A stretch of DNA of 60,577 nucleotides from assembly GCA_020832415.1 (NCBI GenBank), contig JAFIES010000052.1, forward strand, positions 1 to 60,577, written 5' to 3'. This DNA is from Balneolaceae bacterium. Its GTDB lineage: Bacteria > Bacteroidota > Rhodothermia > Balneolales > Balneolaceae. The notes beneath the pieces were generated by a model. The model did not search any database and was not told where the DNA came from. It saw only the letters and a program-made list of their open reading frames with translations. Shown here in pieces: positions 1 through 12,111 of the stretch. The first letter of the stretch is position 1. Each line of letters opens with the position of its first letter. The position numbers were made by a program, and so were the translations under genes.

Positions 1-942
1 CAGGGCGGATTGATGTTGCTGATTGCCCTGTTGATTACCGTTCTATTCTTTCTGGGTACCGGAACTGAAGACGGAGGGGCTGCGGGAATTAATGCTGCCA
101 TCGGTGCGCAAGATTCGTCCCTCACATGGGATAATTATTTCTCACCGGGAGACCCGATTTTCGGAAGCCTCTGGCTTGTTATACTGATGTTTATCGCGCA
201 TCTACCCTTTGCCATGAATCCGCATATTGGAAATAAAGCGTTTGCACTTAAAGATTCGGCTCAGCTTCGCAAATTTCTCATCATGGCCATTCCAATTGGC
301 TCAATACTTGGCTTTGCAGTGTTGGGTGGCCTGCATGCAAGGGCTGTAATTGGCCCCGAATTGCGGCCAGATGCAGCAATACCGGCGCTTTTTGTTGAAC
401 TCTTTCCGCCGGCTTTGGCAGGTTTTCTGGGCATTGCTATACTATCTGCGATTATTTCCACGGCAGATGGCCTTTTTGTATCGATCGCTGTGATTTTTAG
501 TAACGACCTCTACCGAAAAACGTTTTCTCATAAAATTCACCCCAATAAATCTCAGAAAGAGATCGAGAAAACAGCACTGAACATCTCGCGTGTTGCCACG
601 GTTGTCACTGTATTTGCAGCTATGTGGCTTGCGTGGAACCCGCCGGACTTTTTAGCCGTGCTGCTATGGATTGGTGTGGGCGGCATTATGAGTGGTGCTG
701 CTGGTCCGCTTGTTATTGGCTCGATCTGGCGAAGGTCAACCAAGGCGGGTGCTATTGCTTCGTTTCTGGTGGGTGTTATCAGTTATGCTGCAATGTGGCT
801 GGTTATCGGCTGGCAAAATCCATTCGGCGCAGCCGGGGTTTGTGTGATACTTGCATCCGTTGTGATGGTAGTAGTTAGCCTGTTCACCAAACCAATGCCG
901 GAGGAAAAACTTAACGAAATCTTCTCGCCGGTTAGAAAATAA
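1..942 (+). CDS. Sodium:solute symporter (SSS family), 5' end cut by window edge
   Basis: The reading frame is open from base 1, so this is the C-terminal ~313 residues of a larger protein; SSS transporters are usually about 480-550 residues. It is strongly hydrophobic with about eight membrane segments. The stretch around 'LGIAILSAIISTADGLF' followed by 'NDLYRKTF' is typical of the SSS core helices and the cytoplasmic loop after them. The family couples solute uptake to sodium at the inner membrane. It sits 35 bases upstream of the next gene and heads a CoA-dependent catabolic operon, so uptake of that operon's organic acid is an inference. The substrate cannot be read from sequence. Confidence 0.85.
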   Translation, partial: QGGLMLLIALLITVLFFLGTGTEDGGAAGINAAIGAQDSSLTWDNYFSPGDPIFGSLWLVILMFIAHLPFAMNPHIGNKAFALKDSAQLRKFLIMAIPIGSILGFAVLGGLHARAVIGPELRPDAAIPALFVELFPPALAGFLGIAILSAIISTADGLFVSIAVIFSNDLYRKTFSHKIHPNKSQKEIEKTALNISRVATVVTVFAAMWLAWNPPDFLAVLLWIGVGGIMSGAAGPLVIGSIWRRSTKAGAIASFLVGVISYAAMWLVIGWQNPFGAAGVCVILASVVMVVVSLFTKPMPEEKLNEIFSPVRK

Positions 943-977
943 TATTCATCCAGTAAGGAGGCAGCCCTCCCGGAATC

Positions 978-1529
978 ATGATTCAAAAAGCAGTACATGC
1001 AGAGCTTAACGACAAGCAGATACAGTTTGGAATTAAGAGTGCGTATCCATTTCGAAGGTTTCTGCAGCGTTACGAAAAGGCCGGCTATATAGCAGTTTGG
1101 TATCCCTGGTTTTATGTTTCAGTTTCGGTTGAAATGGATACCTACCTGAAGAAAGGGATGATTTACAACGATTTGGTTGCAGTAGACTGCCTTCGTCCTG
1201 TTAAGGAGCGGGTTTCTTCATATCCTGAAGCACTATCATCTGATTTGACCGGGGACACAGTTTTAAAGAGTAAAATCGAAGAGAAAGAAGCCTCGGATGA
1301 AGCTGTAGATCTTATTAAAGGAATCGTGCTGAGCCGCAATAAACTGCTGAAAGATTATGAAGTTCAGGCAAAATCCTGCCGGTTATACTATCTGAAAACG
1401 TTTGTTGTGAAATTTAAAGACAGGTCGGTTAACGAGTGGATCTATATCGATGAACATTTTGAAGCGTCAGCAAAACTTCAGTCAAGGCCTGAGGTTTTAT
1501 CATACATTCAAAAATTAAATGTAGATTGA
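978..1529 (+). CDS. Unknown conserved-looking protein in the C5-acid operon
   Basis: I do not recognise this 183-residue protein. It has no signal peptide and no clear membrane helix. The N-terminal half has an aromatic-rich patch (about residues 35-60, 'GYIAVWYPWFYVSVSVEMD'), followed by a charged, probably helical region with many Lys and Glu. Two Cys are present (near 71 and 137) but form no metal motif. It lies 35 bases after the symporter and 3 bases before the CitE-like lyase, so it is almost certainly translated with them. Possible roles are an accessory to the symporter or to the CoA pathway; neither is supported directly. The ATG start follows 'AAGGAGGCAGCC', a good ribosome site at about -20. 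Confidence 0.75.
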   Translation: MIQKAVHAELNDKQIQFGIKSAYPFRRFLQRYEKAGYIAVWYPWFYVSVSVEMDTYLKKGMIYNDLVAVDCLRPVKERVSSYPEALSSDLTGDTVLKSKIEEKEASDEAVDLIKGIVLSRNKLLKDYEVQAKSCRLYYLKTFVVKFKDRSVNEWIYIDEHFEASAKLQSRPEVLSYIQKLNVD

Positions 1530-1532
1530 AAG

Positions 1533-2402
1533 ATGGAAGAGCAACTAAACATACAAAAACTTGCTGCGGTTCGAAGTTTGCTCTTTGTTCCTGCCGGTAA
1601 ACTGGATAAATGGGGAAAAGCTGAAGCATCCGGCGCGGATGTACTCTGTATCGATCTTGAAGACAGTGTTCCTCCCGATGAAAAGCTGGAAGCCAGATCT
1701 GAAGTATTCGCTTTTCTCGAGCATGGTACTCAAAATCATCCGCTGGTTATTCTTCGCATCAACTCAATCGAAACTGATTTTGGAAAGAGTGATTTAGAAA
1801 TGATCCGGGAGCTCAGCAACCCTGTTGGCGGACTCATGGTACCAAAACTTACCGAAGCGGGTTCGCTTGAAAAGCTATCGAAACAGCTCATCATGTTTGA
1901 ACGGAAAACCCAGCTGATTCCGCTCATCGAAACTGCACAGGCACTTGAGAATTGCAGGGCTATCATGAGCACCAATCTGGTAACCGGCGCCATCTTTGGC
2001 GGTCACGATCTTGCCATGGAACTCGGCTGCTCAAAGGATTGGGATGTTCTTTCGGCATATCGGTCAGAGTTTATTCGCAGTGCAGGCGGCTTGAATTTAT
2101 CACTGATCGATATGCCATGGTTTGGCCTCGATGATATTGAAGGTCTGCGCACAGAAACAAAGAATGCAAAACGATTTGGATTTACAGCGAAAGCGGCAAT
2201 TCATCCGGCACAGGCAGAACCCATTAACCGGGTATTTATGCCAACCCGTAAAGAGGCCGATGATGCTGCCGAAATGATAAAGGTTTTTGAAAAAGCAGGC
2301 GGGCACGCCGTGGCATGGAGAGGTACGGTATTGGAACCACCTGTTATCAATCAGGCAAAGCGCGTTCTGGAAAGAGCCAACTATTTTGAACAAAAAAGGT
2401 AA
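1533..2402 (+). CDS. CitE-like lyase (citramalyl-CoA / malyl-CoA lyase family)
   Basis: This 289-residue protein belongs to the HpcH/HpaI aldolase, CitE-like group, a TIM-barrel family that cleaves 3-hydroxy-acyl-CoA C-C bonds with Mg2+. Visible family features are 'RSLLFVPAG' near residue 14, 'CIDLEDSVPPDEK' near 39, Arg75 in 'LRIN', Glu133 in 'PLIET' and Asp159 in 'FGGHDLAMELG'; Glu and Asp are the expected metal ligands. It starts 3 bases after the unknown gene and precedes an acyl-CoA dehydrogenase, a class III CoA-transferase and a hydratase. In that setting (S)-citramalyl-CoA lyase, giving pyruvate and acetyl-CoA, is the likeliest role (inference). Malyl-CoA lyase is the alternative. 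Confidence 0.88.
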   Translation: MEEQLNIQKLAAVRSLLFVPAGKLDKWGKAEASGADVLCIDLEDSVPPDEKLEARSEVFAFLEHGTQNHPLVILRINSIETDFGKSDLEMIRELSNPVGGLMVPKLTEAGSLEKLSKQLIMFERKTQLIPLIETAQALENCRAIMSTNLVTGAIFGGHDLAMELGCSKDWDVLSAYRSEFIRSAGGLNLSLIDMPWFGLDDIEGLRTETKNAKRFGFTAKAAIHPAQAEPINRVFMPTRKEADDAAEMIKVFEKAGGHAVAWRGTVLEPPVINQAKRVLERANYFEQKR

Positions 2403-2431
2403 AGATCAGTCGATCAAAGAGGTACGAAGTA

Positions 2432-3595
2432 ATGAATATAGATCTGAATGAGACCCACGAAGAACTAAGGCAGCGGGTTCGGGAAATCACCAAAAAATAT
2501 CCGGATGCCTACTGGCAGGATCTGGATGAGAACAGAAAATATCCATCAGAATTTGTGGATGAACTCAGCAAAAGCGGTCTGTTATCGGTGCTAATTCCGA
2601 AGGAGTATGGCGGTGAAGGCCGGTCGTTAACCGAGGCTACAGTAGTGATGGAAGAGATCCAGGCCAATGGATGTAACGGTGGTGTTTGCCATGCACAAAT
2701 GTATATAATGGGAACTCTGCTAAAGCATGGAAATGAGGATCAGAAGCAGCGTTTTTTGCCGAAAATTGCATCCGGTGAGCTGCGGCTTCAGGTTTTTGGA
2801 GTTACCGAAAAACACACCGGCAGCGACACCACAAAGCTACGTACGTTTGCAAAGAAAGTGGATGGCGGGTACCTGGTGAATGGACATAAATTTTACATCG
2901 GGCGGGGACAATACTCCGATCTGATGCTTCTTCTTGCCCGCACAACCCCCATTGATGAGGTTGAAAAGAAAGTAGACGGACTCTCCACGTTTCTGGTGGA
3001 TATGCGGAAGGAGAAAGGAAAGTCGCTGGATATTCGCCCTATCCGCACTATGATGAACCACTCTCTCACTGAGATCTATATCAATGATCTCTTTATCCCC
3101 GACGAAAATCTGGTTGGAGAACTGGGCAAAGGTTTTCGATACATATTGGATGGTATGAACGCTGAGCGGCTTTTGATCGCATCGGAGTGTGTGGGTGATG
3201 CAAAATGGTTCATCAATCGTTCGGTTGAGTGGGCAAACCAGCGGGAGCTTTTTGAGCGGCCAATCGGGCAAAATCAGGGAATCCAGTATCCGATTGCCCG
3301 TGCATATGCATCGATGCTGGCAGCCGAGATGATGGTGAAAAAGGGTTGTGCAGTTTTTGAAGCGGGAAAAAGTTGTGGCGAAGAAGCGAACACCTCGCTC
3401 CTTCTGGCATCTGAGGCATCGTGGGAGGCAGCCAATGTTGCAATGCAAACGTATGGCGGACGTGGTTTTGATGCGAACTTTGCCATTGAACGAAAATTCC
3501 GTGAAACCCGGCTCTACCAGGTTGCTCCAATCTCGAAAAATCTCATTTTGGCATACCTTTCTGAACATGTATTGGGGCTGCCAAGGTCCTATTAA
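2432..3595 (+). CDS. Acyl-CoA dehydrogenase family flavoprotein
   Basis: At 387 residues this is a normal-length acyl-CoA dehydrogenase: helical N-domain, middle domain with 'FGVTEKHTGSDTT' near 122-134 (FAD/substrate segment) and C-terminal helical domain with 'TYGGRGFDANFAIERKFRE'. The C-terminal position that holds the catalytic Glu in medium-chain enzymes ('YEGT') reads 'YQVAPIS' here. Instead Glu245 in 'GMNAERLL' falls where isovaleryl-CoA-type enzymes carry their base. The enzyme should therefore still be active, on a short or branched acyl-CoA. The operon context suggests a C5-dicarboxyl-CoA such as methylsuccinyl-CoA, but this is inference. The gaps to both neighbours are about 30 bases. 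Confidence 0.9.
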   Translation: MNIDLNETHEELRQRVREITKKYPDAYWQDLDENRKYPSEFVDELSKSGLLSVLIPKEYGGEGRSLTEATVVMEEIQANGCNGGVCHAQMYIMGTLLKHGNEDQKQRFLPKIASGELRLQVFGVTEKHTGSDTTKLRTFAKKVDGGYLVNGHKFYIGRGQYSDLMLLLARTTPIDEVEKKVDGLSTFLVDMRKEKGKSLDIRPIRTMMNHSLTEIYINDLFIPDENLVGELGKGFRYILDGMNAERLLIASECVGDAKWFINRSVEWANQRELFERPIGQNQGIQYPIARAYASMLAAEMMVKKGCAVFEAGKSCGEEANTSLLLASEASWEAANVAMQTYGGRGFDANFAIERKFRETRLYQVAPISKNLILAYLSEHVLGLPRSY

Positions 3596-3628
3596 ACAGA
3601 AGATTTATCCTGTAAAAGAGTTGAGTTT

Positions 3629-4759
3629 ATGAACTTTCATCCGCTGAAAAATATAACCATTGTTAGTATTGAACAGGCCGTATCAGCGCCATTTGCGAGC
3701 TGCCGGCTGGCTGATGCCGGGGCAAGGGTTATCAAAGTTGAAAGAGAAGGAACCGGCGATTTTGCCCGCCAGTACGATGAAGTGGTGAAAGGCCAGAGCA
3801 CCTATTTTACGTGGCTGAACCGTGGTAAAGAGTCAGTTCGTGTGGATATAAAATCGGATGAAGGCAGAGAGCTTTTCCTGGCAATGATTGCGAAAGCTGA
3901 TGTTTTTATTCAGAATCTGGCTCCGGGCGCACTCAAAAAACTTGATCTGCACAGCGAAAAGCTGAGGGAAATATCACCCCAGCTGATAACCTGTGACATC
4001 AGCGGCTATGGCGAAGAAGGGGATTATGCTGAGATGAAAGCGTATGATAATCTCGTACAGGCCGAAACAGGCCTGATTGATGTGACCGGTGATGGTGAGA
4101 TGCGCGCCAAAACAGGAATTTCCATAGCAGATATCAGTACCGGAATGCACGCATATGCTGCCATCCTCGAAGCGATTCTCAATCGAAAGGAGACAGGTAA
4201 AGGTGTGGCAATAAAAATATCTATGTTCGATTCCATGGCCGATTGGATGATGGTTCCCTGGCTGCATCAAAAGTATGGAGGTAAAGCTCCGGCACGAACC
4301 GGTGTCCATCATGCAGCAATCGCACCATATGGGCCGTTTAAAACCAAATCGGGTCGGGAGGTTATGATTGGTATACAGAATGAACGCGAATGGGTTCGGT
4401 TTTGCAATGATGTGATGGATGGTTCGATAGATCCGGAAGATGATCGGTTCAGCCGAAACTCGCTCCGGGTTGAAAACAGGAATCAGCTGAACGAGCTGAT
4501 CCAACGGAAGTTTGGTGAAATAAGTTATAATGATGTAATGGAAAGGTTGAAGAAGCAAAAAATTGCGTATGCCAATCTGAACAGCATGGCAGAATTTGTG
4601 GATCACCCGCAGCTGCGTTTAACGAAAGTTGACTCGGAAGCCGGTCATATAGAGATGGCAGATCGCCCGGCCATTTTTGCCGGGTTTGAAACAGGCTTTG
4701 GACCTGTACCGGCACTGGGCCAGCATGATGAAAAAATTAAAAAGGAGTTTGGAATATGA
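3629..4759 (+). CDS. CaiB/BaiF (class III) CoA-transferase
   Basis: This 376-residue protein is a family III CoA-transferase, which moves CoA between carboxylic acids through an aspartyl-CoA intermediate. The N-terminus has the family pattern 'SIEQAVSAPFASCRLADAGARVIKVE', split here at residues 13-24 and 25-39. Asp168 in 'KTGISIADISTG' aligns with the catalytic Asp of formyl-CoA transferase. It would activate the pathway acid to its CoA ester; itaconate or mesaconate with succinyl-CoA as donor is the inference from its neighbours. The stop overlaps the next start as ATGA (4756-4759), pointing to translational coupling with the hydratase. Confidence 0.9.
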   Translation: MNFHPLKNITIVSIEQAVSAPFASCRLADAGARVIKVEREGTGDFARQYDEVVKGQSTYFTWLNRGKESVRVDIKSDEGRELFLAMIAKADVFIQNLAPGALKKLDLHSEKLREISPQLITCDISGYGEEGDYAEMKAYDNLVQAETGLIDVTGDGEMRAKTGISIADISTGMHAYAAILEAILNRKETGKGVAIKISMFDSMADWMMVPWLHQKYGGKAPARTGVHHAAIAPYGPFKTKSGREVMIGIQNEREWVRFCNDVMDGSIDPEDDRFSRNSLRVENRNQLNELIQRKFGEISYNDVMERLKKQKIAYANLNSMAEFVDHPQLRLTKVDSEAGHIEMADRPAIFAGFETGFGPVPALGQHDEKIKKEFGI

Positions 4760-5607
4760 ATTATGACAAATGGATTGGTACATCGAAAGATCAGAGTGAT
4801 TCAATGGCACCCGAACAGCTCCGGCGGTTTGAGGCCATGATGGACAGGAACCCTTCTGAAGTGCAGGCAGGTACTGTTCTGCCGCCATGCGCACACTGGG
4901 TCTATTTTACACCAATGGAGAGGCAATCGGATATCGCGGCCGACGGGCATGCAAAAAAAGGCAGCTTTCTGCCACCGGTTGATCTTCCTAAAAGAATGTG
5001 GGCCGGAGGAAAGATTCTATTCAAAAAACCTCTTAAAACCGGCATCCCTGCCGATAAAAAATCGACCATTGTAAAGATTGAGGAGAAAGAGGGCTCGAGC
5101 GGTAAACTCTGTTTTGTAACCGTTCGCCACCAGATCAGTGCGTCAGGATCCGTTGCCATTGATGAAGAACAGCAGATTGTTTACAGAGAATCATCAGATG
5201 AGGGTGCACACCCGATCAGAACCAAACCGATGGATATCGATTTCGACTGGAAAAAGAGCCGGGTTCTTACCTCAACAGAACTCTTTCGGTATTCAGCCTT
5301 AACCTTTAACGGGCACAAAATTCATTACGACTTTCCCTACGCTACCGATGAGGAAGGGTATCCAAACCTGGTGGTACACGGCCCGTTACTTTTGACTCTG
5401 TTGCTGAATGCTTTCAAATCAAAATCTGATGGCAAGGTGATTGAAGAGGTTGAGTATAAATCAGTCGGGCCGATCTATCTTGGTGAAGAGCTCACCATTA
5501 CCAGCAAAGATGTGGATAACACAAAGGTTGAATTGAGGGTTTTGGGGCCGGACAATAAAATAGCGATGATGGCAAGCGTTAAGTGGATCTATTCATGGAA
5601 TCAATAA
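4756..5607 (+). CDS. FAS1-like/MaoC-type hydratase (mesaconyl-C4-CoA / itaconyl-CoA hydratase-like)
   Basis: This 283-residue protein is a double hot-dog enzyme of the HTD2/FAS1-like dehydratase group. The C-terminal half carries the diagnostic run 'SALTFNGHKIHYD' (N185, H187, H190) and 'GYPNLVVHGPLL' (H208), the same signature as mesaconyl-C4-CoA hydratases. The expected reaction is addition of water to a C5 enoyl-CoA to give citramalyl-CoA, the substrate of the CitE-like lyase upstream. It overlaps the CoA-transferase by 4 bases and the MmgE/PrpD gene by about 13. Whether itaconyl-CoA or mesaconyl-CoA is preferred cannot be read from sequence. Confidence 0.85.
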   Translation: MNYDKWIGTSKDQSDSMAPEQLRRFEAMMDRNPSEVQAGTVLPPCAHWVYFTPMERQSDIAADGHAKKGSFLPPVDLPKRMWAGGKILFKKPLKTGIPADKKSTIVKIEEKEGSSGKLCFVTVRHQISASGSVAIDEEQQIVYRESSDEGAHPIRTKPMDIDFDWKKSRVLTSTELFRYSALTFNGHKIHYDFPYATDEEGYPNLVVHGPLLLTLLLNAFKSKSDGKVIEEVEYKSVGPIYLGEELTITSKDVDNTKVELRVLGPDNKIAMMASVKWIYSWNQ

Positions 5608-6902
5608 GCCGGCAGTTATATCGGTTACTTCAAAATAAGCCTGTTTCAAAGGATGCCCTGAAAGATACCCGGCTTTTTATGCTCGATTGGGCCGGGTGTT
5701 TCGCAGGTGGTAAGGCTACACATCAGGGTGAAATTCTGAGTACCTATCATACAAAATGGGCCGGTGAAGGGTTGTTGCAGAGCGTTTTTCTGATGGCAGC
5801 ACAATCACACATCACCGAGACAGATGATCTTCACAGGGGATCGGTTACGCACCCTGCCTGCGTGGTTTTTCCGGTTGCATGGCAGCTTTCATTATTTTTG
5901 AAAAAAAACCTTCACGATTGCCTGATTGCATCATTGCAGGGGTATGAGGTGATGTGCCGGGTGGGCGAAGCTGTGGGGCCGGGCCACTATAAGATTTTTC
6001 ATAATACCGCCACAGCCGGGGTTTATGGAGCTGCGGCTGCTGCATCGGTTCTACTTCAATTGAGTGAAGATCAGTTTGTTTGGGCGATGGGAAATGCCGG
6101 AACCCAGGCTGCCGGACTCTGGCAGTTTAATGAAGATGCTTCCATGAGCAAACACCTCCATGCCGGGCATGCAGCCGAGGCAGGACTGAAAGCAGCCCTG
6201 ATGGCCGCTGAAAATTTCACCGGCACAGAAAAAATATTTGAAGGTGAAAAAGGCTTTTTTACAGCATTCTGTTCCGACCCGGCTCCGCTCGCAGTTACAA
6301 AACCATCAGATGGCTGGAAATTGAGTGAGACATCCATCAAGCCATATCCATCCTGCAGGCATACACACCCGGCCATAGATGCAGCACTGCAAATCAGGGG
6401 TCAGATGAAATCGGCAGGCGTTCAACCCGAATCAGTAGAAGCAATTGAAATAGTTACGTATGAAACCGCCCTTCGGTTTACCGATAACCCCGGGCCGGAA
6501 TCAACGTTTGCAGCAAAATTCAGCATTCAATACTGTGTATGCCTGGCACTTGAAAAAGGGTTTCCCATGCTGCCACACTTTGAAGGTGATGAACTCCGTG
6601 AAAACCGATCTTCAATATTGATATCAAAAACTCTTGTTCGGTCTGAAGAGCGTTTCAATAAGTCCTATCCAAAAAACTGGGGGGCTCACGTATTGGTGAA
6701 AACAGCCGGAAGTACGTTCGAGGCGGAGATCGAATCGGCCAAGGGTGATCCTGAAAATCCGCTATCAAATGAAGAGATGCTTAAAAAATATGCCGGACTT
6801 ATGGCATATGCGGGCATAAAGAAGAGTATTTCTGAAGATCTCTCAATATGGATTTTAGAAGCTGATGATAGTACGCTTATACCGGAATTAAATATTAAAT
6901 AA
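5595..6902 (+). CDS. MmgE/PrpD family protein
   Basis: About 435 residues from the ATG at 5595; a GTG at 5583 would add four residues. The family includes 2-methylcitrate dehydratase and cis-aconitate decarboxylase. Visible features are 'DLHRGSVTHPACVVFPVAW' near the start of the helical domain, 'GYEVMCRVGEAVGPGHY', 'MSKHLHAGHAAEAGLKAAL' and 'IKPYPSCRHTHPAIDAAL' (the conserved K-Y-S-C-H segment of the lid domain). It overlaps the hydratase gene and is followed after 11 bases by an aldehyde dehydrogenase. MmgE/PrpD genes also occur in known itaconate-degradation clusters, such as that of Pseudomonas aeruginosa, without a settled role. Dehydratase, isomerase or decarboxylase on a C5/C6 acid are all possible. 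Confidence 0.87.
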   Translation: MESISRQLYRLLQNKPVSKDALKDTRLFMLDWAGCFAGGKATHQGEILSTYHTKWAGEGLLQSVFLMAAQSHITETDDLHRGSVTHPACVVFPVAWQLSLFLKKNLHDCLIASLQGYEVMCRVGEAVGPGHYKIFHNTATAGVYGAAAAASVLLQLSEDQFVWAMGNAGTQAAGLWQFNEDASMSKHLHAGHAAEAGLKAALMAAENFTGTEKIFEGEKGFFTAFCSDPAPLAVTKPSDGWKLSETSIKPYPSCRHTHPAIDAALQIRGQMKSAGVQPESVEAIEIVTYETALRFTDNPGPESTFAAKFSIQYCVCLALEKGFPMLPHFEGDELRENRSSILISKTLVRSEERFNKSYPKNWGAHVLVKTAGSTFEAEIESAKGDPENPLSNEEMLKKYAGLMAYAGIKKSISEDLSIWILEADDSTLIPELNIK

Positions 6903-6913
6903 ACCACAATACC

Positions 6914-8341
6914 ATGACGAAAGCACAAAATTTCATAAACGGAAAGTGGGTGGATGGCTCACTCGGAAAACTGGATATGTTAAACCCCTCGTACGACACA
7001 AAAGCCGGTGAAATTGCCCGAAGCGGAAAGGAGGACGTGGATGCTGCGGTGAAGGCTGCAAGGGCTGTTTTTGAGGGGAAGTGGGGAAAGACATCCGCCG
7101 AAGATCGTGGCCGTTTACTCTATAAAGCTGCGCAGATTTTACTGGACCACGTAGATGAACTGGCCGAGCTGGAATCGAAGGATACAGGCAAGCCGATGAA
7201 ACAGGCCAAAACAGACGCCACCCTGATAGCCCGCTATTTTGAGTTTTATGCCGGCGGCGCTGATAAATTTCACGGCGACACTATTCCGTTTAAAGATGGT
7301 TATACAGTCTATACCCAGCGGGTTCCGCTTGGGGTTACCGGCCATATTATTCCATGGAATTATCCCCTGCAGATGACAGGGCGAACGCTCGCTCCTGCAC
7401 TTGCTGCCGGAAACGCCGTTGTTTTTAAGCCGGCTGAAGATGCTTGCCTTGCCGTTGTAAGAGCATTTGAATTGATTTCGCAGCTGGATTTCCCGGCCGG
7501 TGCCCTGAACCTGGTAACAGGTCTCGGGCAGGAAGCCGGCGCTGCCTTGGCCAACCACCCTGGAATTGATCACATGGCGTTTACCGGTTCACCTGAAGTG
7601 GGTATTGAGATCATGAAGAATTCAGCCGATCATATTCGTCCGGTATTGCTGGAGTTGGGCGGGAAATCTCCGCAGGTGATCTTTAATGATGCCGATCTGG
7701 ATGCTGCCCTGCCTGTAGTGGTAAATGCCATCATTCAAAATGCGGGACAAACATGTTCGGCAGGCTCAAGACTGGTTATTCAGGAGGATATTCACGACGA
7801 TTTTGTTGATAAACTGATTGAACGCTTCAAGAAAATTAAAGTGGGTCCGGCAGATTCCGATCCCGATATTGGCCCAATCATCAACAAAAAACAGCTTAAA
7901 CGTGTAGAAGATTTTGTGAAACGCGCTGAGGAGTCCGGTGCCACCATTCTTGCACAGGCTGAAAAACCGGAAGGGAACGGTTATTTCTATCCACCCACCC
8001 TGATGGGACGCGTAAACAACGACAGTTACATCGCACAAAATGAAGTTTTTGGCCCTGTTTTGGCGGTGATTCCATTCAAAGATGAAGCCGATGCCATCCG
8101 CATAGCAAATGATGTGGAATATGGTTTGATTGCCGCAGTATGGACCAAAGATAACGGACGTGCTCACCGGGTTACCAATGCCATCCATGCAGGGCAGGTT
8201 TACGTGAATGGTTATGGAGCAGGTGGTGGTGTAGAGCTACCGTTTGGCGGTATGAAGAAGAGTGGTTTTGGCCGCGAAAAAGGGTTTGAAGCCCTTTATG
8301 ATGTAACGGCAGTTAAAACAGTTGTTATTAATCACGGGTAA
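6914..8341 (+). CDS. NAD(P)-dependent aldehyde dehydrogenase
   Basis: A full-length 475-residue ALDH superfamily enzyme oxidising an aldehyde to its acid. Visible active-site residues are Asn149 ('PWNYP'), Glu247 ('LLELGGKS') and the nucleophile Cys281 ('NAGQTCSAGSR'). The cofactor region 'FKPAEDACL' and 'FTGSPEVGIEIM' and the 'FGPV' and 'GGMKKSGFGRE' blocks are intact. It is 11 bases after the MmgE/PrpD gene and 29 before an alcohol dehydrogenase. The pair could feed an alcohol or aldehyde precursor into the acid pathway (inference). The sequence class is the general betaine-/aromatic-aldehyde type, and the substrate is unknown. Confidence 0.93.
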   Translation: MTKAQNFINGKWVDGSLGKLDMLNPSYDTKAGEIARSGKEDVDAAVKAARAVFEGKWGKTSAEDRGRLLYKAAQILLDHVDELAELESKDTGKPMKQAKTDATLIARYFEFYAGGADKFHGDTIPFKDGYTVYTQRVPLGVTGHIIPWNYPLQMTGRTLAPALAAGNAVVFKPAEDACLAVVRAFELISQLDFPAGALNLVTGLGQEAGAALANHPGIDHMAFTGSPEVGIEIMKNSADHIRPVLLELGGKSPQVIFNDADLDAALPVVVNAIIQNAGQTCSAGSRLVIQEDIHDDFVDKLIERFKKIKVGPADSDPDIGPIINKKQLKRVEDFVKRAEESGATILAQAEKPEGNGYFYPPTLMGRVNNDSYIAQNEVFGPVLAVIPFKDEADAIRIANDVEYGLIAAVWTKDNGRAHRVTNAIHAGQVYVNGYGAGGGVELPFGGMKKSGFGREKGFEALYDVTAVKTVVINHG

Positions 8342-8370
8342 TTTTTAATCAGAAATCGATAAACATCATC

Positions 8371-9426
8371 ATGAAAAGCTTACAGTTGGCCGAATTTGGC
8401 AAACCACTGCAATGGGCAGAAACAGAAACTCCGGTACCAAAAGGAAAAGAAGTACTCTTAAAAGTTGATGCCTGCGGGGTTTGTCATTCCGATCTGCACA
8501 TCTGGGAAGGATACTACGAACTTGGCAACGATGAACGGATGTACATTGCCGAACGTGGGGTAGATCTTCCCCTTACGCTGGGTCACGAAGTGGTAGGGAC
8601 GGTAGTACAAGCCGGTGAAGATGTAACTGAGGTTAAAAAAGGTGATCGCCGCCTGATCTATCCCTGGGTGGGATGCGGAGAGTGCAAATATTGCAGAACC
8701 GACCGAATGCACATGTGTTTGTCACCCGGATCCATCGGTGTATTTCAGGATGGCGGATACAGCGATTACATCCTGATTCCTCATGAGCAGTACCTGGTGG
8801 ATATAGATGGTTTGAAACCCGAAAATGCCTGTTCATACGCTTGCGCAGGTTTAACCGCATACAGTGCCCTCAAAAAGATGATGCCGCTTGAGGATGACGA
8901 AACCATGGTAATCGTTGGTGCAGGCGGACTTGGCTTGATGGCTATGCAAGTGGTTCGTGAACTCACATCGGCTAAAGTTATCGTGATTGATGTGGACAAC
9001 GAAAAGCTGAAAGCTGCCGGGGAACTTGGAAATTTTACCACCATCAATTCAAAAAGTGAAAACCCGGTTGATCGTGTAATGGAATTGACGGATGGAAAAG
9101 GCGCATCCGCAATCGTTGATTTTGTGAACAATCAGGCAACATCAACGGCAGCATTTAATATGCTTCAAAAGAATGGAATAATGGTGATGGTGGGCTTGTT
9201 TGGCGGCAAACTCACATTTTCAAACCCTGTTGCTACACTTAAAAATCTTACAATTCGCGGCTCCTATACGGGAGGTCTGTCTGAATTGCGAGAGCTCATC
9301 GATATTGTACGCGACAAAAAACTGAAATCCATCCCGGTAAAAACCTACAAACTGGATGCTGCTGACGAACTTCTTAAGAAAGTAAAGAATGGTGAGATAA
9401 CAGGCCGTGCCGTGGTTGCTCCATGA
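8371..9426 (+). CDS. Zinc-dependent alcohol dehydrogenase
   Basis: A 351-residue medium-chain dehydrogenase. The catalytic zinc site is Cys38 ('CGVCHSD'), His72-Glu73 ('LGHEVVG') and probably Cys158 ('SYACAGLTAYSAL'). The structural zinc site is Cys102, Cys105, Cys108 and Cys116 (C-x2-C-x2-C-x7-C). The NAD-binding turn 'GAGGLG' is at 183-188. It has an unusual insertion between the two zinc-site blocks ('YYELGNDERMYIAERGVDLP'). It is the last gene of the operon, with 142 bases to the next gene. Together with the preceding ALDH it could take a primary alcohol to an acid; the substrate is not known. Confidence 0.93.
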   Translation: MKSLQLAEFGKPLQWAETETPVPKGKEVLLKVDACGVCHSDLHIWEGYYELGNDERMYIAERGVDLPLTLGHEVVGTVVQAGEDVTEVKKGDRRLIYPWVGCGECKYCRTDRMHMCLSPGSIGVFQDGGYSDYILIPHEQYLVDIDGLKPENACSYACAGLTAYSALKKMMPLEDDETMVIVGAGGLGLMAMQVVRELTSAKVIVIDVDNEKLKAAGELGNFTTINSKSENPVDRVMELTDGKGASAIVDFVNNQATSTAAFNMLQKNGIMVMVGLFGGKLTFSNPVATLKNLTIRGSYTGGLSELRELIDIVRDKKLKSIPVKTYKLDAADELLKKVKNGEITGRAVVAP

Positions 9427-9568: not shown

Positions 9569-10873
9569 ATGAAACTTGTATTCAAAACTGTGCTGATTCT
9601 GCTTTTTATATCGGCCAACCTGTTGGCTCAGGAGCGCCCTCATGTATTTGAAGGTGCAGAAATCATCACCATTACCGGAGAAACCATTGAAAATGGTGTT
9701 CTGGTTGTGGAAAATGGAGTAATTACTGCAGTTGGAGCATCCGGAGATGTTACCATTCCGCAAAATGCCGAACGTGTAGATGTAACCGGTAAGGTAATTA
9801 TGCCGGGTATTGTGGACACACACTCCCATATTGGTGAAGGAGACGGTGGTGATCGCTCTGCTGCTCTGCACCCCGACGTACGAATTCTCGATACCATCGA
9901 CCCGAGAAGTAAAACATTCCGAAAAGCGGCTTCAGGTGGTGTAACGTCAGTGAATATTATGCCCGGTTCTGGCCTTCTGATGAGCGGCCAAACCGTATAT
10001 GTAAAAACCAAACCTGCAAACACCATCGAAGAGATGCTGATTGTGGTTGATGAAGAGACCGGAATTTATGGCGGCCTGAAAATGGCAAACGGAACCAACC
10101 CGCTGCGGGCTGACGGTTCTCCGGGAACACGTGCGAAATCGGCCGCACTGGCACGCGAACTTTTTGTAAAGGCACAGGAATACAAAGCTAAAGTAGATGC
10201 TGCAAATGGCAATCCGGATGAAATGCCATCACGTGACCTGCAGATGGAAACCCTCGTTGAAGTTCTGGAAGGTAAGCGGATCGTACACAATCACACACAC
10301 CGCCATGACGATATTTTAACAGCTATTCGCCTTGCCGAAGAGTTTGGATACAGAATGGTTTTGCAGCATGTAAGTGAGGGTTGGAAAGTAGCCGAAGAGA
10401 TTGCAAATGCTCCGATTTTAGGCTCATCCATTATTACACTCGATTCGCCGGGCGGTAAGCTGGAAGCGATCAATTTACTGAATATTAACGGACGTGAACT
10501 TGAAAAGGCAGGTGCACTGGTCGCATTCCATTCAGATGACCCGATTGTGGATTCCCGGTTTTTGATTCGCTCGGCTGCACAGGCAGTTCGCGAAGGTATG
10601 AGCCGCGAAAAAGCACTTGAAGCACTCACAATTGCCGGTGCAAAAATGATGGATATTGAAGACCGGGTGGGGTCACTTGAACCCGGCAAAGATGCCGATT
10701 TTCTGATTCTGTCCGGAGATCCCTTCAGCGTCTATACACATGTGGAGCAGACCTGGATAGAAGGTGAAAAAATCTGGGATCGTGACAATCCGGAGGACCG
10801 CATTTATGCGATTGGCGGATATGAAATTTTCCGCGCTTCGGCCAACTATCATATTCACATGGAGGGCCACTAA
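9569..10873 (+). CDS. Secreted metal-dependent amidohydrolase
   Basis: A 434-residue amidohydrolase-superfamily protein of the imidazolonepropionase/dihydroorotase-like type, with an N-terminal signal peptide (residues 1 to about 21, ending 'ANLLAQ'). The metal site is present: His85 and His87 in 'VDTHSHIGEGD', His240/242/244 in 'VHNHTHRHDD', His267 in 'VLQHVSE' and the 'HSDD' block (H321, D323). The C-terminus has the family ending 'VGSLEPGKDADFLILSGDP'. It hydrolyses amide or similar bonds, presumably in the periplasm or at the surface; the substrate is unknown. It is 2 bases from a tandem paralogue. Confidence 0.88.
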   Translation: MKLVFKTVLILLFISANLLAQERPHVFEGAEIITITGETIENGVLVVENGVITAVGASGDVTIPQNAERVDVTGKVIMPGIVDTHSHIGEGDGGDRSAALHPDVRILDTIDPRSKTFRKAASGGVTSVNIMPGSGLLMSGQTVYVKTKPANTIEEMLIVVDEETGIYGGLKMANGTNPLRADGSPGTRAKSAALARELFVKAQEYKAKVDAANGNPDEMPSRDLQMETLVEVLEGKRIVHNHTHRHDDILTAIRLAEEFGYRMVLQHVSEGWKVAEEIANAPILGSSIITLDSPGGKLEAINLLNINGRELEKAGALVAFHSDDPIVDSRFLIRSAAQAVREGMSREKALEALTIAGAKMMDIEDRVGSLEPGKDADFLILSGDPFSVYTHVEQTWIEGEKIWDRDNPEDRIYAIGGYEIFRASANYHIHMEGH

Positions 10874-10875
10874 TC

Positions 10876-12111
10876 ATGAAAAACAGACTCAATAAACTAC
10901 AGTTTATGCAACAATTTATTCTGCTCTCAGCAGCACTCTGCATGGTTACTGCATTCAGTTTTACCGTTCAGGCACAGATTGCCGTAAAAGGTGAAATGGT
11001 TTACACCATGGCAGGCGAACCCATTCCAAATGGGGTTGTTCTTATTAATAATGGTGTTATAGAACGTGTCGGCTCAGCCGATCGCATCGACATACCGGAT
11101 GCATACGAAGTTCACGAGGCGAAGATCGTAACTCCGGGATTAATCGATTCCCGAACCGTGGTTGGCCTTGCGGGATATTACAATCAGCCCCACGAGCAGG
11201 ATCAGCTGGAAACATCCAATGCTGTTCAGCCCGAACTGAGGGCGATCGACTCGTACAATGCCAGGGAGTTTCTGGTTGGCTATCTTCGCGGTGAAGGCAT
11301 CACAACGATGCATACAGGCCATGGGCCCGGCGCGGTTATAAGCGGGCAGACTATGATCGTAAAAACCACAGGGAGAACTGTTGATGAGGCACTTGTGGAT
11401 TCCACTACCATGCTGGCTGTAACCATGGGGCCAAGTGTGCGCAGCAATTTCAGCTCGCCCGGAACCCGTTCAAAGGCTGTGGCCGTGCTTCGCCAGGACC
11501 TGATCAGGGCGCAGGCGTATGCAGAAAACCGTGCATCGGGTGATGTGAGCAGCCGCGATCTCAAAATGGAAGCTCTGGCTGATCTGCTTGATGGAAAAAT
11601 CAAAGCACTCGTGTCAGCACACACCGCAAGTGATATAATGACTGCACTGCGAATCCAGCGGGAGTTTGGTTTCCAGATGGTACTTGAAGGTGCATCCGAA
11701 GCGTATCTTGTAATTGATGAGATAAAGGAAGCCGGAGTGCCGGTAGTAATCCATCCAAAAATGATTCGCCCGTTTGGTGAGGCTAAAAATTCCAGTTTCG
11801 AAACCGCAGCAAAACTGCACGAGGCGGGAATTCCCGTTGTCTTTCAAAGTGGCTTTGAAGGTTACGTGCCTAAAAGCCGGATAGCTAAATTCGAAGCTGC
11901 GATTGCTGCAGCCAACGGTCTTGGCATGGAAAACGCTCTCTATGCACTCACTATGGGTGCGGCTACGGTTCTGGAAATTGACGATCGTGTTGGCTCTCTT
12001 GAAATGGGTAAAGATGCAGATCTTGTTCTGTTTGATGGTGATCCGTTCGAGTATCTGACCAATGTAGAGGCTGTGATCATCAACGGAACGGTAGTTCACA
12101 CGAGGGATTAG
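10876..12111 (+). CDS. Amidohydrolase-like paralogue lacking metal ligands
   Basis: A 411-residue secreted protein (signal peptide to about residue 33, 'VQAQ') plainly homologous to the gene before it, with the same order of blocks and the ending 'VGSLEMGKDADLVLFDGDP'. At each position where the upstream paralogue has a metal ligand this one differs. 'DTHSH' is 'DSRTV' (91-95), 'VHNHTHRHDD' is 'LVSAHTASDI', 'VLQHVSE' is 'VLEGASE', and 'HSDD' is 'QSGFE'. It is therefore probably catalytically inactive in the usual sense and may act as a partner subunit or binding protein of the active enzyme. The start is 2 bases after the upstream stop, so the two are co-translated. A hairpin terminator follows. 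Confidence 0.85.
   Translation: MKNRLNKLQFMQQFILLSAALCMVTAFSFTVQAQIAVKGEMVYTMAGEPIPNGVVLINNGVIERVGSADRIDIPDAYEVHEAKIVTPGLIDSRTVVGLAGYYNQPHEQDQLETSNAVQPELRAIDSYNAREFLVGYLRGEGITTMHTGHGPGAVISGQTMIVKTTGRTVDEALVDSTTMLAVTMGPSVRSNFSSPGTRSKAVAVLRQDLIRAQAYAENRASGDVSSRDLKMEALADLLDGKIKALVSAHTASDIMTALRIQREFGFQMVLEGASEAYLVIDEIKEAGVPVVIHPKMIRPFGEAKNSSFETAAKLHEAGIPVVFQSGFEGYVPKSRIAKFEAAIAAANGLGMENALYALTMGAATVLEIDDRVGSLEMGKDADLVLFDGDPFEYLTNVEAVIINGTVVHTRD

Follow-up and report, generated by a model that had tools for sequence, protein, structure and literature searches.

What does the gene cluster at the start of a Balneolaceae contig degrade, and with which compound does its pathway begin? The window, the whole stretch of DNA analyzed, comprises 60,577 nt from the first base of contig JAFIES010000052.1 (C53; Balneolaceae bacterium, GCA_020832415.1). 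A first-pass annotation had described a tightly spaced or overlapping nine-gene operon within positions 1-9426, and the ORF list and Pfam searches confirmed all nine plus-strand ORFs in the places it had assigned (Table 1). The genes are co-directional, with intergenic gaps of 3-35 nt or otherwise overlaps, and those of the transferase and the hydratase share 4 nt. The start of the MmgE/PrpD gene is probably the ATG rather than the upstream GTG at 5583, because the orthologue begins with MESL.

Table 1. Features of the operon in the window
Feature	Position	Strand	Basis or remark
SSS symporter, C-terminal 313 residues (189-501)	1-942	+	Pfam SSF; 5' end open
183-aa ORF	978-1529	+	Operon-restricted; without Pfam or NCBIfam match
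CitE-like C-C lyase, predicted (S)-citramalyl-CoA lyase	1533-2402	+	RipC-leaning (NCBIfam, PDB, tree)
Acyl-CoA dehydrogenase, predicted (RS)-methylsuccinyl-C4-CoA dehydrogenase (Mcd)	2432-3595	+	Mcd clade, motifs
Class III CoA-transferase, predicted itaconate/(R)-methylsuccinate CoA-transferase (Ict)	3629-4759	+	PF02515, 325 bits; Ict clade
Itaconyl-CoA/mesaconyl-C4-CoA hydratase (Ich)	4756-5607	+	PDB 8khg, E 2.3e-58
MmgE/PrpD, predicted (S)-(R)-methylsuccinate isomerase (Msi)	5595-6902 (ORF from 5583)	+	Tree, catalytic residues
NAD(P)-dependent ALDH, predicted methylsuccinate-semialdehyde dehydrogenase	6914-8341	+	PF00171, 552 bits; GQTC and LELGG motifs
Zinc ADH, predicted omega-hydroxy-acid dehydrogenase	8371-9426	+	Pfam ADH_N/ADH_zinc_N

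A synteny comparison recovered the same nine genes in identical order in a second family of the order (L020, L021), and genomes of the same genus repeat this order, either completely or until the contig ends. Since it recurs in this way, the operon is not a chance arrangement. The dN/dS ratio was 0.005-0.12 wherever computable (0.09-0.10 for the 183-aa gene). Promoter and terminator scans gave counts close to the shuffled expectation. On the 3' side of the operon, two successive amidohydrolase-like genes with signal-peptide-like starts occupy window positions 9569-12111; the pair also follows the operon in the close relatives L115, L117 and L118, is absent there in L014 and L021, and is probably unrelated.

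The C5-dicarboxylate role first proposed for the transferase and the hydratase held up in phylogenetic trees. The transferase, the single class III CoA-transferase of the genome, fell inside the Ict clade with support of 100/100, the clade being made up of class III transferases encoded beside Ich and Mcd elsewhere, and it has the Asp of the ADISTG motif. Assignment as Mct, the mesaconyl-CoA isomerase of the 3-hydroxypropionate bicycle, was rejected at only 41 bits against a cut-off of 725. The hydratase is 41% identical over 242 aa to the structurally characterized itaconyl-CoA hydratase of P. aeruginosa and retains the NGHKIHYD and VVHGPL motifs. The acyl-CoA dehydrogenase, for which a function on methylsuccinyl-CoA had been suggested, was indeed placed inside the Mcd clade (99/97). 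It carries the NAER and FRETRLYQVAPIS motifs common to this clade, the latter being nearly invariant. The Glu of NAER presumably occupies the position known from isovaleryl-CoA dehydrogenase. ETF genes, for Mcd, are present on contig C8 of the genome.

In a tree with several long branches the MmgE/PrpD protein grouped as sister to the Msi clade of proteobacteria (95/92), at a distance from IDS epimerase, B. subtilis IRG1 and cis-aconitate decarboxylase. All catalytic residues proposed for Msi (H, D, H, Y, H, K, K; PMC12290011) and the CRHTHP motif are present. On an Msi profile that we built from proteobacterial members, which themselves score 671-866 bits, the protein reached 283 bits, and the MmgE proteins of the Aminobacter and Deinococcus Mcd clusters reached 278 and 314 bits. 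The published Msi cut-off of 550 bits belongs to another profile (PMC12290011); a survey with such a high cut-off on the published profile would probably miss these proteins.

Judged by trees and catalytic residues, Ict, Ich and Mcd belong to the methylsuccinate/itaconate set published for Pseudomonas, Cupriavidus and Paraburkholderia; placement of the MmgE/PrpD protein in this set as Msi is less firm. The functions of the dehydrogenase and the MmgE protein are not new, since Gonner et al. (2025) showed in proteobacteria that Mcd converts methylsuccinyl-C4-CoA to mesaconyl-C4-CoA and that the MmgE protein interconverts (S)- and (R)-methylsuccinate as an isomerase (PMC12290011). The genetics of the pathway had been shown earlier by De Witt et al. 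(2023; PMC9875883), and Ict and Ich orthologues are active on itaconate (PMC12290011).

The lyase proved to be CitE-like as initially described, but not of the Pseudomonas Ccl type. It is only 31% identical to the P. aeruginosa Ccl structure sequence and lies outside the PA0883 Ccl clade, whereas most proteobacterial cluster-borne lyases are 37-66% identical to P. aeruginosa Ccl. In the PDB it matched Yersinia RipC (3qll) with 159 bits and P. aeruginosa Ccl with 91 bits. The NCBIfam family RipC_Ccl (NF038242, cut-off 375) scored 215 bits for this lyase, 464 for Yersinia RipC and 158 for P. aeruginosa Ccl. These scores, together with a grouping with RipC at 91/86, lean toward a closer relationship to the Yersinia enzyme; because the tree held a single RipC, a hybrid of the Yersinia and Pseudomonas pathways is kept as a leaning only. 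A malyl-CoA/beta-methylmalyl-CoA lyase was rejected (40 bits, cut-off 500). The predicted citramalyl-CoA lyase activity follows from gene context, not from orthology.

The start of the operon lies upstream of window position 1. In relatives, the gene preceding the symporter encodes a metallo-beta-lactamase fold protein of about 285 aa with an HxHxDH motif and, as judged by eye, a signal-peptide-like start. From these relatives we predicted such a gene at some contig end, and it was found on contig C38 of the same genome (ca. 727-1584, minus strand, 94% identity to a relative), with the lactonase end facing the contig of the window. Symporter residues 1-175 are encoded at the very end of C38, and residue 189 is the first in the window; the two pieces match the orthologue, read as split over the two contigs, with 96.5% and 96.6% identity. 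An assembly gap of some 39 nt therefore interrupts the operon. The full array thus comprises ten genes, in the order lactonase, SSS symporter, 183-aa gene, lyase, Mcd, Ict, Ich, Msi, ALDH and ADH, and wherever an intact copy lies on a contig that extends far enough, the lactonase adjoins the symporter.

AttM (NF045700) was the best of all NCBIfam families for this tenth protein (218 bits, below the cut-off of 390), and its best PDB matches were N-acylhomoserine lactonases. The di-zinc site HxHxDH...H...D...H and the Tyr following the Asp are present, with HFHLDH or HLHLDH in all copies; the C38 sequence (L130) has GHT, DAAY and LGHS. We predict an AttM/BlcC-like metallo-lactonase that looks exported, at a score below the equivalog cut-off. 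Its structural matches would suit a quorum-quenching enzyme for acylhomoserine lactones that stands beside the operon incidentally. AttM itself, however, is a catabolic enzyme for butyrolactone, the lactonase strictly co-occurs with Mcd, and a LuxI family search of the genome, run without a positive control, gave no match, so that a role in quorum quenching seems very improbable.

Several other genes occur upstream of the lactonase. An FG-GAP/ASPIC-UnbV protein is encoded there in L130 (C38, 2527-10739), L117 and L118, as are a SusD-like protein and a SusC/TonB-type receptor, these two identified by eye, a possible outer-membrane uptake partner. A sulfatase-like gene precedes the lactonase in L116. 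In the loci of the second family a GntR-family regulator gene, a candidate regulator of the operon, lies 5' of the lactonase. A metallo-beta-lactamase gene near Ich in an Acidobacteriota locus (L046) has a different gene context and was dismissed.

The ADH and ALDH had originally been thought to feed the pathway from a free alcohol or aldehyde. Entry through an alcohol group was retained, but the upstream lactonase shifts the predicted substrate to a lactone. Homologues elsewhere occur in related settings. In Aminobacter, Sinorhizobium, Sphingobium and Deinococcus, Mcd clusters have neighboring ALDHs of the window type (40-42% identity). Close relatives of the ADH on plasmids of Pseudosulfitobacter, Rhodococcus and Pseudomonas are accompanied by an alpha/beta hydrolase, an FAD-dependent oxidoreductase and an SSADH-type ALDH. 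In Novosphingobium an alpha/beta hydrolase accompanies the ADH relative and an ALDH lies further off; the context in Neorhizobium is unlike the others. The size and context of the FAD-dependent oxidoreductase suggest a Baeyer-Villiger type, and such clusters resemble those for lactone degradation. Orthologues of Mcd (53%) and Ich (37%) also occur in the Pseudosulfitobacter cluster. On a Thermus plasmid, an ADH and an SSADH are encoded close to Mcd. The promiscuity of the ALDH and ADH families counts against the lactone reading. In the Mcd/Ict clusters of a Deinococcus (L142) and a Thermus plasmid (L143), small MaoC hydratases replace Ich, and L143 also has a class I fumarase-like pair; these Deinococcota clusters are further variants of the route.

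Among 129 genomes of the order, orthologues of Mcd, the lactonase and the ADH were found in 12 genomes each. Allowing for contig-edge truncations and one incomplete genome, the three sets are the same 13 genomes, which carry the array and belong to two genera in two families. One genome (G415) has only the first 72 residues of Mcd and another (G448) only the last 51 of the lactonase, both at contig edges, and the ADH mismatch concerns one genome that is 84% complete. No further genome among the 129 passed the thresholds for any of the three. This co-occurrence is strong evidence for linked function, short of statistical proof because there are few independent gains (two genera).

These data bear on whether the operon simply serves growth on methylsuccinate and itaconate, with the symporter importing the diacid and the lactonase, ALDH and ADH being accessory or separate, for instance in detoxification of aldehydes or lactones. 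The five core genes do suffice for growth on both diacids in Pseudomonas and Cupriavidus (PMC12290011), and several Balneolaceae retain Ict with Ich, or Ich with ALDH, without the other genes. Such a division of labor is nevertheless unlikely given that the lactonase and ADH share both genome set and array with Mcd and that ADH and ALDH lie within the tight co-directional array in two genera. The reduced Balneolaceae loci (L013, L015-L019, L023) carry intact Ich alone, with Ict, or with ALDH, and mostly occupy one site, flanked by a 120-aa gene and a Usp gene. Mcd and the lyase were absent from the checked Balneolaceae genomes that have these loci. Since these Ich genes are intact and diverged, they suggest a separate use of the enzyme, possibly itaconate detoxification, or perhaps the itaconate-to-citramalate conversion with Ict plus Ich discussed in PMC12290011.

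We consider it fairly probable that the ten-gene array serves the catabolism of a methyl-branched C5 lactone, ending in acetyl-CoA and pyruvate. This reading is based on gene content, synteny, co-occurrence, clade placement and catalytic residues. The exported lactonase would open alpha- or beta-methyl-gamma-butyrolactone, or an unsaturated analogue, outside the cytoplasm, and the symporter would take up the resulting 4-hydroxy-methylbutanoate. The ADH would oxidize the hydroxy acid to the semialdehyde and the ALDH would produce methylsuccinate, the (S)- and (R)-forms of which may be equilibrated by Msi. Activation by Ict with succinyl-CoA would yield (R)-methylsuccinyl-C4-CoA, which Mcd would convert to mesaconyl-C4-CoA with electrons passing to ETF. 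Hydration by Ich would give (S)-citramalyl-CoA, to be cleaved by the lyase to acetyl-CoA and pyruvate. The point of entry for itaconate would be Ict. The reactions of Ict, Mcd, Ich and Msi are taken from the literature on orthologues. We infer the lactone substrate, hydroxy-acid transport, the steps assigned to ADH and ALDH, and the compound that the lyase cleaves; sequence alone does not tell where the methyl group of the lactone sits or whether the ring is saturated.

Alternatively, alpha-methylene-gamma-butyrolactone or a methyl-butenolide could enter, in which case ADH and ALDH would form itaconate or mesaconate/citraconate, leaving Mcd and Msi as a side entry. Lactonases of the AttM/AiiA group tolerate diverse lactones and the Ict and Ich orthologues handle itaconate (PMC12290011). 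Of the enzymes, however, Mcd is conserved best (80% across families), and Msi is retained in every full array; methylsuccinate is therefore favored over the unsaturated diacids, and entry of an unsaturated lactone appears improbable.

The scheme with a methyl-branched lactone assigns no part to the 183-aa protein, which counts against the scheme. Pfam and NCBIfam searches gave no matches. Among 395 genomes of the phylum, the profile of the protein matched 4, each of which carries the operon, and no homologue was found in 79 other Ich loci, nearly all proteobacterial. With an AlphaFold model of pLDDT 87.7, Foldseek and VIA-align, like a sequence search of the PDB, gave nothing convincing; the best VIA-align match, PurS (Z 5.1 over 57 residues), is unconvincing. 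We tentatively put at slightly under even the chances of the more far-reaching proposal that the operon is a complete and previously undescribed methyl-branched gamma-butyrolactone route, which starts with hydrolysis outside the cytoplasm and sodium-coupled uptake and leads to pyruvate and acetyl-CoA, in which the 183-aa protein, new and lineage-specific, is a working part and which supplies methylsuccinate besides itaconate reduction.

Compared with the ich, mcd, msi, ict and ccl genes of P. aeruginosa (PA0878-PA0883) and C. necator (E6A55_22580-22600), the operon shares Ich, Mcd, Ict, an Msi-sister MmgE/PrpD protein and a CitE-type lyase, but the gene order differs and the lyase is of another CitE lineage. 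The lactonase, SSS symporter, ADH, ALDH and 183-aa gene are added, and a TRAP transporter and a PA0880-type 2-hydroxyparaconate lactonase are missing. The blc operon of Agrobacterium (blcABC, attKLM), which degrades gamma-butyrolactone (PMC5924552) and encodes an SSADH, an iron ADH and AttM, follows a similar logic, in that an AttM-like lactonase, an ADH and a (semi)aldehyde dehydrogenase convert a gamma-lactone to a dicarboxylate. The ADH here is of the zinc MDR type instead of the iron type, the lactonase has a signal-peptide-like start, and the products would feed the methylsuccinate pathway rather than succinate directly. Yersinia ripABC provides the nearest relative of the lyase among solved structures, RipC, but its CoA-transferase and hydratase are non-homologous or only distantly homologous (PMC12290011) and it lacks Mcd and Msi. 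Plasmid pSMR1-4 of Pseudosulfitobacter pseudonitzschiae (NZ_CP022419.1, L137) similarly places its Mcd and Ich orthologues by an ALDH, a 43%-identical ADH and a hydrolase; there, an alpha/beta hydrolase and an FAD oxidoreductase replace the metallo-lactonase. Its CoA-transferase gene (L137:3710-4465) lacks the middle part, some 150 central residues; otherwise the Mcd/Ich/ALDH/ADH cluster is complete.

The suggestion in the first-pass annotation that such an operon would widen the range beyond proteobacteria did not stand as a novelty. Clusters of this kind are already known there (PMC12290011; Deinococcus and Thermus plasmids), with non-proteobacteria contributing 3.8% of Msi in a survey (PMC12290011), and the range extension alone is thus modest. 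What is most likely new is that the operon joins lactone-opening and Ict/Mcd/Ich modules, known so far only apart in the literature found. In open-licence literature we found no paper joining methylsuccinate with lactone or butyrolactone catabolism and none naming itaconate with Balneolaceae, which is weak evidence since only open-licence papers were covered. The operon offers enzymes for bio-derived methyl-butyrolactone monomers and gives a defined, testable role to a lactonase that automatic annotation would label as quorum quenching. Before its formation by itaconate reduction in gut bacteria was found, it was unclear where methylsuccinate in the environment comes from (PMC12290011). A lactone-fed front end, if true, would be a second source of methylsuccinate, would show that lactone opening of the blc type can be combined with the Ict/Mcd/Ich core, and would help account for the recurrence of the cluster with ADH and ALDH genes in unrelated bacteria.
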